A stretch of 58,621 bases of DNA, taken from NCBI GenBank assembly GCA_945910645.1, contig CAMDZB010000004.1:1-58621 (forward strand). Reading direction: 5' to 3'. The translations under genes and the position numbers were made by a program. The notes beneath the pieces are model-generated. The model made no database searches and was not told where the DNA came from. It saw only the letters and a list, made by a program, of their open reading frames with translations. Below, in pieces: positions 51,739-57,034 of the stretch (its first letter is position 1; every line of letters starts with the position of its first letter). Source of the DNA: an uncultured Spirochaetaceae bacterium (GTDB lineage Bacteria; Spirochaetota; Spirochaetia; Sphaerochaetales; Sphaerochaetaceae).

Positions 51739-51879
51739 TTAGACCACCTCAATGCCAAAGTTCAACGACAGGATATAAGGGACAGGCTCACTGCTAAATC
51801 CCAATCGGATATAATCGCATTTGTTGATGATTGCAACAATTTCATTAAAATCCGTTACTTCTCGGTCTGATCTACGCAT
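51739..51879 (-). pseudogene. Truncated pyridoxamine 5'-phosphate oxidase-like (Nim-type) gene
   Basis: Only 46 residues remain: MRRSDREVTDFNEIVAIINK, then CDYIRLGF and a Pro-Tyr-Ile-x-x-Leu-Asn-Phe-Gly segment, the N-terminus of flavin-binding proteins related to nitroimidazole resistance proteins, which are normally about 150 residues. The reading frame stops exactly where the GGCTCG repeat fragment begins. GGGGGGGAGAGG precedes the ATG, so the start was once well translated. A run of eight G lies in that ribosome-binding region. Confidence 0.75.
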
Positions 51880-51952
51880 ACCTCTCCCCCCCCTGTTATT
51901 TTTAAACACAGCTAAGTGGCAAACAATAAACGTTATAAAGAAAACTTGCAAC

Positions 51953-52714
51953 TCAATTTGAGTTATATGAAGACAATAACTTATGGTTATAGTCGTTTGC
52001 AAGTCCTATTGCCAATGACATTGAAATCTTTGATTCTTCCATAGTCGGCACCTGAACCTTAACCAACAACAGAGGAATTAACGACGAAAGTGTCAATAAA
52101 CTGCCAACACCGGCAATAATTCCTCCCGGAATCAACACTGAATTATTATATCCTGAAAGACCGCACATCAAAGCTCCGGCTATCATAGCTCCCAATCCCA
52201 CTCCTAACAATGTATATCCTGCAATATTAACTGCATTCTTTTTTCTTTTATAAGCGTCATATTGAGAATTATACATTTCGATTTTATTCCTCATATCATC
52301 CTCTAAATCGTACGCACCGACCATATGTAAAAAAGAAAGTTTACTGATTTTTTCAGGACCGCAATAAGGAACCCAATCAATGCTTTTATTTGTTTCCGAA
52401 TATCCGTCCGATGTTGCTCCACCTACTGCAGACGATGCTAAAATAAGAGTAGAAACCAATCCCAAATTCCCGGAATAAAAAAGCGGAGCATATGAAAACG
52501 TATTAGTTTGGCTATGCGTTTTTGATGTTTCCTCTGTTTCTATACTTAAATGATTGTATAAAAAGTGCCTCTTTTGTTCTTCTGTAAGATTTTGGTAAAT
52601 TTCTGCATCGTTGTTATTTGTCATAACCGTTTCCGTAAAAGCGGCAAAAACAGAGGTTGAACCCACTGCTAAAAGTATTACTAAAGCTGTAACTATATTA
52701 ATAATTTTTTTCAC
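51953..52714 (-). CDS. Exported membrane protein of unknown function
   Basis: A signal peptide (IINIVTALVILLAVGSTSVFA) is followed by a polar region, a weak hydrophobic stretch near residue 85, and two strong glycine-rich membrane segments near residues 170-215 (GYTLLGVGLGAMIAGALMCGL and VLIPGGIIAGVGSLLTLSSLIPLL). The start is GTG at 52714, preceded by GGAG. Spirochaetes have many proteins of this look; no known domain was recognised. The downstream end runs into the truncated flavoprotein leader. Confidence 0.65.
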   Translation of the reverse strand: MKKIINIVTALVILLAVGSTSVFAAFTETVMTNNNDAEIYQNLTEEQKRHFLYNHLSIETEETSKTHSQTNTFSYAPLFYSGNLGLVSTLILASSAVGGATSDGYSETNKSIDWVPYCGPEKISKLSFLHMVGAYDLEDDMRNKIEMYNSQYDAYKRKKNAVNIAGYTLLGVGLGAMIAGALMCGLSGYNNSVLIPGGIIAGVGSLLTLSSLIPLLLVKVQVPTMEESKISMSLAIGLANDYNHKLLSSYNSN

Positions 52715-52884
52715 AATTTACTCCATCTGTGATGTAAGGTATAAACATTATATTAGAAAACACCATAAAAGAGAATAATGCATGGCGTGGATGAGGTGAA
52801 TTTAGTGTAATCTCAGTTATATCTAAAACAATTACTTTTCCTTTCTAAAAATACAAAAAGAACAGGTTTTTAAAACAATAGTGG

Positions 52885-52952
52885 TATACGCGGCGGCTGC
52901 TCTCCTCTTGGACTTATAAAAGCCACAGACGGAATTGTCTGTGGCTTTGTTT
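52885..52952 (+). pseudogene. Deleted remnant of a ybaK-like gene, now a perfect hairpin
   Basis: 28 bases at 52885-52912 are identical to the active-site region of the intact ybaK (55823-55850), and 22 bases at 52919-52940 match its 3' end (55965-55986); the 114 bp between them are missing. In the remnant AAAGCCACAGAC (52919-52930) pairs fully with GTCTGTGGCTTT (52937-52948); the intact gene has a broken right arm. The hairpin may end transcription of the radical SAM gene. The rest of 52715-52884 shows only promoter-like AT-rich sequence. Confidence 0.8.
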
Positions 52953-52980
52953 AGGACGTGGGTGTATTAACCTGTTACGC

Positions 52981-54339
52981 TTAATGTTCACTACAATACT
53001 CTTGGAGAGCCTCATAATATAATCGTGTTATTTCGCAGTTATGATCTGTTATCTTCATATAGTCACCGTTGTTTTCATTTGCATTTTTTGAAAAGCAAAT
53101 ATGACAAAACGGACGAATATCACAACCGTTACACTTTTTAAAATCACTGTAGCGAATATATCTAATTTTTTTAAAGGCTGATGAGTGTAAAAGTATATCC
53201 AACATTGTATTGTGTTTAACATTACCACAAACACAGTTCCATCCGGGGCATGGTACAACATCTCCGTTTGAGTTGATTGCAACTCCGTTTAAACCAACTC
53301 CGCATGGTCTATCTGTTGTTTTGTACCCATTTTTAATCTGTTCAATATCAATTGCTTTAGCTTGTTGTGTTAGAGAATTTTTAAATTGAACTTTTAATGC
53401 TTGGTAATCCGGACGATGTAAAAGATTTTGAGTACAACAGTCACTTTCTGCAAATATGTCGTTATCTATTCTAAGCTTGATATTATTCTCTTTACACCAT
53501 TTACTAACATCGCTGCTGTCATTGATATTATAGTCCATTAACGGACACGCTATCCAAACATTAACATTATTGTTAAGGAGCTTTTTTATATTAGCAAATG
53601 TTTTATCAAAGGAGCCTTTAAGGATTGTGATTTTGTCATGCGTTTCTGCCTTCAAGCTATACAGCGAAATTTGAACGGTAGTTAGCGGATTTTTAAACAA
53701 CTCAAGATATTCATCATTAAGCAACGTTAAATTGGTAAATACCGTAACAAAGATATGCTTTGTTTGCAGCCTTTTAATAACTTCCGCAAAGCGAGGGTGC
53801 AGCATTGGCTCACCGCCGGATATGTTTACACTCATAACGGATGAAGAATTATCAATTTCATCAAGAATTTTATCAAGTGTATGGTTATCCATATCTTTTA
53901 TTTTATCTTGATGAGGAATATAGCAGTGAATACATCTTTCGTTACATATGTTTGTTAACTCGATATGAATGTGACGTAGATCAACCGAATTGTCAATCTC
54001 TTGTGTGAGTTCTCCCTCTTTAATCATGGAATCACTTGGTATTTGTTGCAATTCATCATCACATTCAATATCAACCATATTCAGTTTTTTTAAACTGTAA
54101 TAAAATTCTATAGCATCGTTTTTTAGTGTCTCATAAGATACATCAATATAAACTGATAAAAGGTGTTTTACAACAGTATCTATGTTTTGATATTCATACG
54201 TAAGGCATGAACAAAAAGGAATGGACCCCTCCTCTACAACAACAGATGATTCTTCTAAACCATTCTGTCCTCTGTATAAAATCCATCCCCTTTTGTCAGA
54301 CACTTTAAAAACAGTTAAATTATTTAATTTAAGTTTCAT
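52981..54339 (-). CDS. Radical SAM/SPASM peptide-modifying enzyme with PqqD-like N-terminus
   Basis: Radical SAM enzyme of about 452 residues. The first 95 residues resemble a PqqD/RRE peptide-recognition domain (LNNLTVFKVSDKRGWILYRG, then HLLSVYIDVSYETLKNDAIEF). The SAM cluster motif is CNERCIHC near residue 145, followed by NISGGEPMLHPRF. The C-terminal SPASM region has CPGWNCVCGN and KKCNGCDIRPFCHICFSK for extra clusters. Such enzymes crosslink or modify ribosomal peptides. A 34-residue candidate substrate lies just upstream. The start is uncertain: ATG at 54339, or TTG at 54363 close to the peptide stop. Confidence 0.88.
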   Translation of the reverse strand: MKLKLNNLTVFKVSDKRGWILYRGQNGLEESSVVVEEGSIPFCSCLTYEYQNIDTVVKHLLSVYIDVSYETLKNDAIEFYYSLKKLNMVDIECDDELQQIPSDSMIKEGELTQEIDNSVDLRHIHIELTNICNERCIHCYIPHQDKIKDMDNHTLDKILDEIDNSSSVMSVNISGGEPMLHPRFAEVIKRLQTKHIFVTVFTNLTLLNDEYLELFKNPLTTVQISLYSLKAETHDKITILKGSFDKTFANIKKLLNNNVNVWIACPLMDYNINDSSDVSKWCKENNIKLRIDNDIFAESDCCTQNLLHRPDYQALKVQFKNSLTQQAKAIDIEQIKNGYKTTDRPCGVGLNGVAINSNGDVVPCPGWNCVCGNVKHNTMLDILLHSSAFKKIRYIRYSDFKKCNGCDIRPFCHICFSKNANENNGDYMKITDHNCEITRLYYEALQEYCSEH

Positions 54340-54366
54340 TTTTCTTGCGTCTATGTTATTCAATCA

Positions 54367-54471
54367 TTATTCTCGGCAAAGATGGCCCATGCCCTGATAT
54401 CTTGGTATACAAGGATATGGGATTACACCCATGTTCACAACTTTCATTGCTTGCGGTTTACAGTACTTCAT
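54367..54471 (-). CDS. 34-residue three-cysteine peptide, candidate RiPP precursor
   Basis: The frame starts MKYCKPQAMKVV and ends HLCRE. Cysteines are at 4, 21 and 32; residues 17-25 read IPYPCIPRY, followed by GMG. AAGGAGGT lies ideally before the ATG, the strongest ribosome-binding site in this region. The start overlaps the NTPase stop by 14 bases and the stop lies 3 bases before a possible TTG start of the radical SAM gene. Size and place fit a precursor peptide; the modification and any leader cleavage cannot be read from the sequence. Confidence 0.7.
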   Translation of the reverse strand: MKYCKPQAMKVVNMGVIPYPCIPRYQGMGHLCRE

Positions 54472-54955
54472 CGTTTACCTCCTTTATATTAAGTTTTTCA
54501 AGAATTTCATCAAGACATTGTTTATTATTTTGATCTTGTTTTAACTTGTCATTTTCATTAGTAGTTATTACCTCAAAACAACTTATGATATTTGCATATT
54601 TATGATTTTTTAATGATTTATCAAATGCATTCTTCACGTTTTCATGCTCAGTATTCTCTGATATAATCCAATAGTCTATTTTTAACATTTCTTTATTGCT
54701 ATAAAGACAACAATCAACAACAAAAAGATAGTTAATGAGTAGTTCACGATAATTATCTCCGGGACTTGTAATTACTACATTTATGTCGTTACCGTCACTA
54801 TCTTTACCATTAAGAAAAACACGATGGTCTTTTGGATCATCTGTTTTTTTATGGTCTACTCTAGTAAAATTATTCTTGATTAATTCATTATACAAATTAT
54901 CCAAAATTGTTGTCTTGCTGGAATTACTTTTCCCGGATAGTACTATAACTTCCAT
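54458..54955 (-). CDS. Small P-loop NTPase of the radical SAM locus
   Basis: The 165-residue protein starts with a Walker A motif, LSGKSNSSKTTIL (GxxxxSKT), at about residues 6-18. A VITSPGDNYRELL strand near residue 68 and VVDCCLYS near residue 83 look like the rest of a small nucleotide-binding fold; the C-terminus is charged. The ATG at 54955 is chosen because GGGAG lies six bases before it. It is the first gene of the operon with the peptide and the radical SAM enzyme. Its job there, such as regulation or transport, is unknown. Confidence 0.72.
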   Translation of the reverse strand: MEVIVLSGKSNSSKTTILDNLYNELIKNNFTRVDHKKTDDPKDHRVFLNGKDSDGNDINVVITSPGDNYRELLINYLFVVDCCLYSNKEMLKIDYWIISENTEHENVKNAFDKSLKNHKYANIISCFEVITTNENDKLKQDQNNKQCLDEILEKLNIKEVNDEVL

Positions 54956-54992
54956 ATAATCTCCCGCCCTATTCAAAGAGTATTTGTTTTGT

Positions 54993-56008: not shown

Positions 56009-56332
56009 TTAATCGTCATCATCGTCATCTTTGTCATCATCGTCATCATCGTCTTTGTCGTAACAGTTGTTTTTATCTGCTACTGTTTCAACATTAACAT
56101 CTTCATTCGGTACAGCAAATACTTTGCCGCAATCTATACACACATATGCTGTAATATTATCAGTACGTTTAGTACATCGTAAACATAACATATCCTTCCC
56201 CTCTCCAGGGTAATCCTCTTTCATTTTATTCATAAGATTTTCACTAAAAGAACAATCATTATAACTCGTACAAGTACAATAAAGATGCTTAGTTCTAATA
56301 TTTAGACTATCACAATAAGGACAATGATACAT
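56009..56332 (-). CDS. Zinc-ribbon protein with aspartate-repeat tail
   Basis: The 107-residue protein begins MYHCPYCDS and has further CxxC pairs (CLRC, CIDC), forming two zinc ribbons. The last 17 residues are almost only aspartate with two lysines, encoded by a GAT/GAC trinucleotide repeat likely to vary in length. The ATG at 56332 is preferred because AAGGAG precedes it. It overlaps the 156-residue gene by 23 bases. Function is unknown. Confidence 0.65.
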   Translation of the reverse strand: MYHCPYCDSLNIRTKHLYCTCTSYNDCSFSENLMNKMKEDYPGEGKDMLCLRCTKRTDNITAYVCIDCGKVFAVPNEDVNVETVADKNNCYDKDDDDDDDKDDDDDD

Positions 56333-56780
56333 AAACACACTCCTTTATTGCTTTATCAAGTTCTTTTAATTGAGAAATAACTTCTTGTACTATTTCTTCA
56401 TCTTTTTTACCTGTAATCTGAATTCCACTGCTATCTTTGTAATACCATAGCCAGTTATCATTTTTGCATCTGTCTAAGTCTGATTTGTTTAAACCACAGC
56501 TATTTAATAAGTTAGTAATTTTTTCGGCTTCCTTACCTGTAAAATTTTTTTGTTCCAAGTGAAACATTACATAGATTATTGAGTCTTTTTCTATACGAAC
56601 TTCAAAATGATAATCTTCAGTCCAAACAAATGGCCATCTCTTTAACCCTATTTGTATATACTCACCATTATTATTATTCATATCCAGCGGGTGTTCTAAA
56701 TAAAAGAAACCGGCATTATCAAGTTCACATTGTATTTTATTAAATAATTGCTTATGTTTCTTATTCTGCTCATTACCCAT
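56310..56780 (-). CDS. Protein of unknown function between two zinc-ribbon genes
   Basis: The 156-residue protein is alpha/beta-looking, with strands such as YIQIGLKRWPFVWTEDYHFEVRI and IIYVMFHLE and a conserved-looking NDNWLWYYKD near residue 108. No catalytic motif, signal peptide or membrane segment is visible. It is co-directional with the zinc-ribbon genes on both sides and overlaps the downstream one, so they are probably made together. Confidence 0.6.
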   Translation of the reverse strand: MGNEQNKKHKQLFNKIQCELDNAGFFYLEHPLDMNNNNGEYIQIGLKRWPFVWTEDYHFEVRIEKDSIIYVMFHLEQKNFTGKEAEKITNLLNSCGLNKSDLDRCKNDNWLWYYKDSSGIQITGKKDEEIVQEVISQLKELDKAIKECVYVSLSLL

Positions 56781-56818
56781 TTTTATCTCCTCAAATTAGT
56801 ATTAGTTGATTACTCACT

Positions 56819-57034
56819 TTACCAACGTGTTCCACAGTCATAACAATAGTGGCGCTTTCCACTTTTGTTATAGTACGCTGTATTAGTACTACCACATGTT
56901 GGACATTCATACTCATCTCGTCTATCATCCTCGGATTCATCAAAATGTCCGCCACAATTATAACACTTAAAATCGTCACTCAAGTCATCCCAATGGAATC
57001 TTGTACTACCACAATATGGACAATGTTTCCCCAT
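56819..57034 (-). CDS. Double zinc-ribbon small protein
   Basis: 71 residues with four CxxC pairs: CPYC, CYNC, CPTC and CYDC, thus two complete zinc ribbons, joined by an acidic linker DESEDDRRDE. AAGGAG precedes the ATG. It is the first gene of the trio and lies directly behind the second copy of the triple-hairpin element. It may bind nucleic acid, but no function is known. Confidence 0.7.
   Translation of the reverse strand: MGKHCPYCGSTRFHWDDLSDDFKCYNCGGHFDESEDDRRDEYECPTCGSTNTAYYNKSGKRHYCYDCGTRW

Follow-up and report, generated by a model that had tools for sequence, protein, structure and literature searches.

The 105-bp frame at positions 54367-54471 (minus strand) of the DNA analysed here, a stretch of 58,621 nucleotides hereafter called the window, is a real gene of 34 codons whose likely role is that of the precursor of a ribosomally synthesised and post-translationally modified peptide (RiPP). 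Reading its sequence together with that of the neighbouring gene, we regard the peptide as a putative radical-SAM-modified, cysteine-cross-linked RiPP. Of the features that define RiPPs, we found an encoded short precursor with a conserved leader (MxYxKP) and a variable core, in 17 precursors and in the allele of a congeneric genome (G001), as well as a modifying enzyme beside the precursor, with a radical SAM/SPASM gene at every locus. The gene, its conservation, the order of the operon, the family of the enzyme, the common leader motif and the replacement of the core between species were all observed directly. Radical SAM RiPPs are a known kind of system; the novelty lies in a family with a YxKP leader, devoid of a curated precursor model, and in the natural replacement of the core in a closely related pair.

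The peptide gene

The gene was delimited using the list of open reading frames, the G001 homologue, the family alignment and profile matches. It starts with the ATG at 54471 and its TAA ends at 54367; the product, MKYCKPQAMKVVNMGVIPYPCIPRYQGMGHLCRE, has a leader spanning residues 1 to ~17 (Y3-x-K5-P6-x-A8, here Y3-C-K-P-Q-A8) and a core spanning residues ~18 to 34, with Cys21 and Cys32. The plus strand of the same interval reads differently. A Shine-Dalgarno sequence, AAGGAGGT (54477-54484, minus strand), lies 5 bases before the ATG, the good distance that an earlier note on this DNA had claimed, and is identical in G001. AGGAGG is found 3-11 bases before a start codon at only 13 sites in the 58.6-kb window, including the one of the peptide gene; several of these precede ordinary genes. 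The scan for promoters of the operon returned nothing above chance level. The overlap with the stop of the upstream 172-aa gene is exactly 14 bases, as that note had stated, and the frame indeed ends just before the next gene, which encodes the radical SAM enzyme: the gap is 3 bases if this gene starts at its listed TTG (54363) and 27 bases if it starts at the ATG at 54339. The latter is conserved in G001 and is the more likely start.

The note had proposed a real peptide gene, missed because of its size, and the comparison with G001 (JAQYLW010000072.1, a Spirochaetales MAG) bears this out. There, an enzyme 98% identical to that of the window is preceded by the peptide MKYSKPQATKVVNMGGIGFNCPPKWNDMRMQCRVG, in a frame that is open, in frame and of almost equal length, with the identical Shine-Dalgarno sequence and a conserved leader; this frame overlaps the preceding gene's end in the same way. 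Cys21 and Cys32, whose conservation the note had singled out for checking, align without gaps and are exactly the two cysteines kept. The third of the cysteines it had counted, Cys4, is present in the window but is a serine in G001. This genome, the sole close relative at hand, has neither frameshifts nor stops in the frame, and the dN/dS ratio is below 1, as anticipated, in both the leader (0.20) and the core (0.48), values that derive from few sites and two alleles. The composition of the peptide, which had also been invoked, is not decisive for the reality of the gene. The strand, the leader and core structure, and the peptide-modifying nature of the radical SAM neighbour were absent from the note.

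Among the short frames of the window, only the peptide ORF begins with Y-x-K-P. When we scanned 292 kb, comprising the window and the enzyme loci, YxKP-type short ORFs were found solely at enzyme loci (~25 matches, two of them overlapping starts in L046); five whole shuffles of these 292 kb gave 6 matches.

A family of YxKP peptides associated with one enzyme

The genome of the window encodes a second, paralogous operon in another contig (C11; L009 6875-9832), with a P-loop protein (38% identical), the five-cysteine peptide MAYTKPLVIAGTKANGNFSAGCVDKYGYGCCATCRCS, the enzyme, and an Amidohydro_2 protein that overlaps the end of the enzyme gene and recurs in 10 of the examined enzyme loci. Using the C11 enzyme as a query against 392 genomes of the phylum, we identified relatives in 16 genomes; plasmids of E. 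coli, Salmonella and Photobacterium also carry the enzyme. All 21 loci with an uncut upstream region, which come from spirochaetes and from these plasmids and include near-duplicates (L041/L042 and L054/L055), encode a YxKP peptide of 27-51 aa located 0.1-2.1 kb upstream of the enzyme, usually with a good Shine-Dalgarno sequence. In the alignment of 17 peptides, M1, Y3, K5 and P6 are invariant, and the two near-invariant cysteines are the most conserved positions of otherwise highly variable cores. The first cysteine is absent from the aligned peptide of G447, and in G249 and G352:C58 the frame that contains the motif is longer and probably starts elsewhere.

A profile of these peptides matched 13 of 394 genomes of the class at E < 1e-8, always beside this enzyme. 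It was built from most of the same peptides, whose low E-values are thus circular, but G469, G249 and G352:C58 are independent and were still found. G469 was found through the peptide alone, and an enzyme-like N-terminus lies downstream of it. No Pfam or NCBIfam model covers the tested peptides: the family with a YxKP leader, a cysteine-bearing core and a dedicated radical SAM/SPASM enzyme lacks a curated precursor model in these databases. Searches of the literature with the core strings gave no match.

Cores and enzymes branch together: the AAGCP...C..CE, CRPNSKPSGRPC and window core types are each found with a separate branch of the enzyme tree. The conjugative plasmids of E. coli, Salmonella and Photobacterium (L054 5674-7302, L055 2782-4410 and L053 5672-7293) encode the enzyme and the peptide MSYSKPTVLAKSSTYMAQCRPNSKPSGRPCNPPGPSGR, which directly follows a serine-recombinase-like gene. 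In the core, the plasmid peptides hardly differ from those of two spirochaetes, suggesting transfer between phyla. The plasmid peptide is absent from the gene table of PLSDB, which is incomplete, and the collection of complete E. coli genomes gave no match to the plasmid version.

Several loci have a second, diverged radical SAM paralogue beside the first (e.g., L044 6825-8234, L045 5375-6415, L041 3579-4898). The enzyme gene of G354 (L045 6427-7871) is interrupted by stop codons and its peptide is intact. Tandem precursor copies occur in L039 (4412 and 4685), where the first copy looks decayed past the leader, and in L048 (5815 and 6009). We considered reading the in-frame TGA codons of the G373 peptide as selenocysteine and rejected it; with two TGA side by side and a third further on, truncation or decay of this peptide seems the better explanation.

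The enzyme and the operon

Domain models and alignments identify the downstream gene (52981-54363, minus strand) as a radical SAM/SPASM peptide maturase of 460 aa from the TTG, or 452 aa from the ATG at 54339. It has the radical SAM motif CX3CX2C (CNERCIHC, residues 140-147) and seven SPASM cysteines (354, 372, 411, 414, 420, 423 and 443), and scores 84 bits with the Radical_SAM model and 37 bits with the SPASM model. Both domains are present in 17 out of 17 aligned relatives. The PqqD model (RRE domain) matches 13 of the 17 enzymes of the family and is not reached by the window enzyme's own sequence; the N-terminus of the window clade aligns with those of the PqqD/RRE-bearing relatives with 98.3% probability in profile homology searches. 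An AlphaFold model of the enzyme, made from two sequences, was too poor (pLDDT 39.5) to test its fold.

The best solved relatives of the enzyme, three PDB matches, are SkfB (E 2e-25), PqqE (6c8v) and SuiB. All three act on peptides, and SkfB is a sactisynthase. The window enzyme falls well under every cutoff of the named maturase models of NCBIfam: 83.5 of 850 bits for AlbA (residues 76-434), 72 of 300 for SkfB, 70.5 of 625 for StsB, and 69.3 of 340 for the ranthipeptide maturase PapB. It also scores 71 bits with models of prokaryotic viperins. We rejected an anti-phage role of this type: the match is limited to the radical SAM core, and the SPASM domain and the precursor speak against it.

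The operon comprises, in this order, a P-loop protein, the peptide, the radical SAM/SPASM enzyme and a terminator hairpin. We read it as ending there because a 12-bp stem followed by a short U run lies after the enzyme gene (52919-52948, minus strand; -19.9 kcal/mol, z -8.4). The P-loop NTPase-like protein, whose Walker A motif is GKSNSSKT, has 172 aa from the TTG at 54976 (54458-54976, minus strand); a start at the ATG at 54955 is also possible. No family reached its cut-off in the domain-model search with this protein, and its AlphaFold model, from a single sequence, was too poor for fold searches (pLDDT 42.5). It is probably accessory, since it was seen in three loci only (the window, C11 and G395), with a further tail at the end of the G001 contig. 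In phages and plasmids the P-loop protein had no match, the enzyme alone had one weak, unannotated phage match, and viral contigs contained no useful relative of either.

We recognised no gene for an exporter, a protease or immunity near the operon. The exporter might be encoded elsewhere, or the peptide might act in the cytoplasm or as a signal; the missing exporter and the variable core are compatible with each, and we have no preference among them. A 253-aa protein with a signal-like N-terminus and no family (51953-52714) is conserved downstream of the enzyme in G001. At 51739-52002 is an 87-aa remnant of a protein that G001 encodes intact, with 166 aa (L010 12490-12990), and the similarity to G001 breaks inside this remnant, at 51746. 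Positions 56009-57034 encode small zinc-ribbon-like proteins, one of which terminates in a long Asp-rich run.

Replacement of the core between species

The window and G001 have in common a block (51746-54503, minus strand) that extends up to the end of the G001 contig and is mostly 95-100% identical, with 98-100% identity over most of the enzyme. Identity within it drops to about half in a single patch of roughly 100 bases (54347-54426, minus strand), which takes in the core codons and then the spacer almost as far as the start of the enzyme gene. The oadA genes of the two genomes are 77% identical in DNA. The near identity of the block, when oadA is so divergent, points to a recent exchange of the block between genomes. 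Substitution rates follow the same partition. The enzyme has a dS of 0.034, the core a dS of ~1.5 and a dN of 0.73, and the leader, with very few sites, intermediate values (dS 0.28, dN 0.06); the comparison of the cores involves two alleles, and the G001 peptide is encoded no more than 134 bases from the end of a MAG contig, beside an assembly break.

This pattern suggests that the core may have been exchanged by recombination. A bolder reading, which we hold to be somewhat less likely than not, is that of a natural core-swapping RiPP locus: a near-invariant leader and maturase, recently shared between species, would acquire new cores by recombination within ~100 bases, so that one enzyme would make different cross-linked peptides in different strains, with selection for novelty as in bacteriocins or signals that determine specificity. 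We found no donor for either core patch in 41 related genomes. The difference between the cores, and only this part of the data, might also have arisen by point mutation under diversifying selection, or by an old tandem duplication of which each species kept a different copy, a possibility that we hold with some doubt. Tandem precursor copies do exist in related loci (L039 and L048), and selection on the product would be expected to give the core a rate of change of its own. However, the synonymous sites (dS of 1.5, compared with 0.03 for the enzyme) and the non-coding spacer have changed as much as the amino acids have, which is not what point selection by itself predicts. Recombination, or the retention of different tandem copies, is therefore favoured over such selection on its own.

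Proposed mode of action

The radical SAM/SPASM enzyme encoded next to the peptide would bind the short leader (residues 1 to ~17) through its RRE-like N-terminal domain. We infer this binding from the leader motif and from the alignment of the N-terminus. YxxPx[L/V/I/F/A] is an experimentally supported RRE-binding leader motif in lasso and linear polyphosphorylated peptide systems (PMC13381572), and the YCKPQA of the window fits it. Motifs of the W/Y/LxxP type have been reported across several RiPP classes, including lasso peptides, PQQ and a sactipeptide (PMC12710340). The enzyme would then modify the core around Cys21 and Cys32. The most plausible chemistry is the linkage of each cysteine sulphur to another core residue, in a thioether of the sactionine or ranthionine type; this chemistry and all later steps are what we infer from the genes. 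The P-loop protein, translationally coupled to the peptide, would have a putative helper role, and the leader would be removed by a protease encoded outside the operon. Between species, the core would have been exchanged, and the leader and enzyme are kept. Taken as a whole, from leader binding through core modification and P-loop help to leader removal, we consider the RiPP-precursor explanation very probable.

The nature of the product is less certain. SPASM enzymes are known to catalyse C-C and ether bonds, epimerisation and other modifications, as well as trimming to a cofactor. A product of such kinds, e.g., a trimmed cofactor as in PQQ, with cysteines serving for instance in metal binding, is rather unlikely here but would fit the presence of PqqE and SuiB among the three PDB matches, the absence of a recognised exporter in the operon and the Amidohydro_2 neighbour of 10 examined loci. 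Against it stand the two cysteines, which are the most conserved positions of the variable cores, and the top solved relative, the sactisynthase SkfB. The position of the frame directly before the enzyme start and over the upstream stop also allows translational coupling to be its sole role, as a regulatory upstream ORF or a chance frame in the 5' region of the enzyme that has no peptide function of its own. We regard this as very improbable given the residue-wise conservation of the leader and both cysteines across distant loci, some with the peptide 0.5-2 kb from the enzyme, and the tandem peptide copies of L039 and L048. Although YxxPx[LVIFA] is known as the RRE motif of lasso peptides (PMC13381572), we dismiss a lasso precursor almost entirely, as the whole genome has no B2-type transglutaminase-like protein (PF13471) at E 0.01, the neighbours scanned include no asparagine-synthetase-like cyclase, and the constant partner of YxKP peptides is a radical SAM enzyme.

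Relation to known systems

The radical-SAM-modified RiPP that we favour resembles sactipeptide systems (SkfB and the sporulation killing factor, AlbA and subtilosin, StsB) in its radical SAM and SPASM enzyme, its putative N-terminal RRE region and its adjoining small cysteine-containing precursor. It differs from them in its scores, far under the maturase cutoffs, and in that neither an exporter nor an immunity gene was recognised, and the sactionine bond is here putative. Ranthipeptide systems (PapB, SCIFF-type) also have a radical SAM/SPASM enzyme that acts on a cysteine-bearing peptide, but the PapB cutoff is missed, there is no six-cysteine SCIFF-like precursor, and a ranthionine bond is likewise putative. 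With the RiPPs that have YxxP leaders, lasso and linear polyphosphorylated peptides (PMC13381572), the family has in common the YxxPx[V/A/I] leader, the conserved N-terminus and the variable C-terminus; in contrast to them, its constant partner is a radical SAM enzyme and the genome lacks the lasso protease family. The short precursor, putative RRE domain and SPASM enzyme recall PqqA, PqqD and PqqE, but here the RRE region is fused at the enzyme N-terminus, the core bears cysteines, and no other pqq genes were found among the neighbours scanned.

An unannotated frame of 34 codons thus becomes a testable pair of enzyme and substrate, in a defined family whose members occur both in spirochaetes and on conjugative plasmids of E. 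coli, Salmonella and Photobacterium. The two natural cores, which differ at most positions and are associated with enzymes that are 98% identical, provide a ready test of substrate tolerance, which is relevant to peptide engineering.
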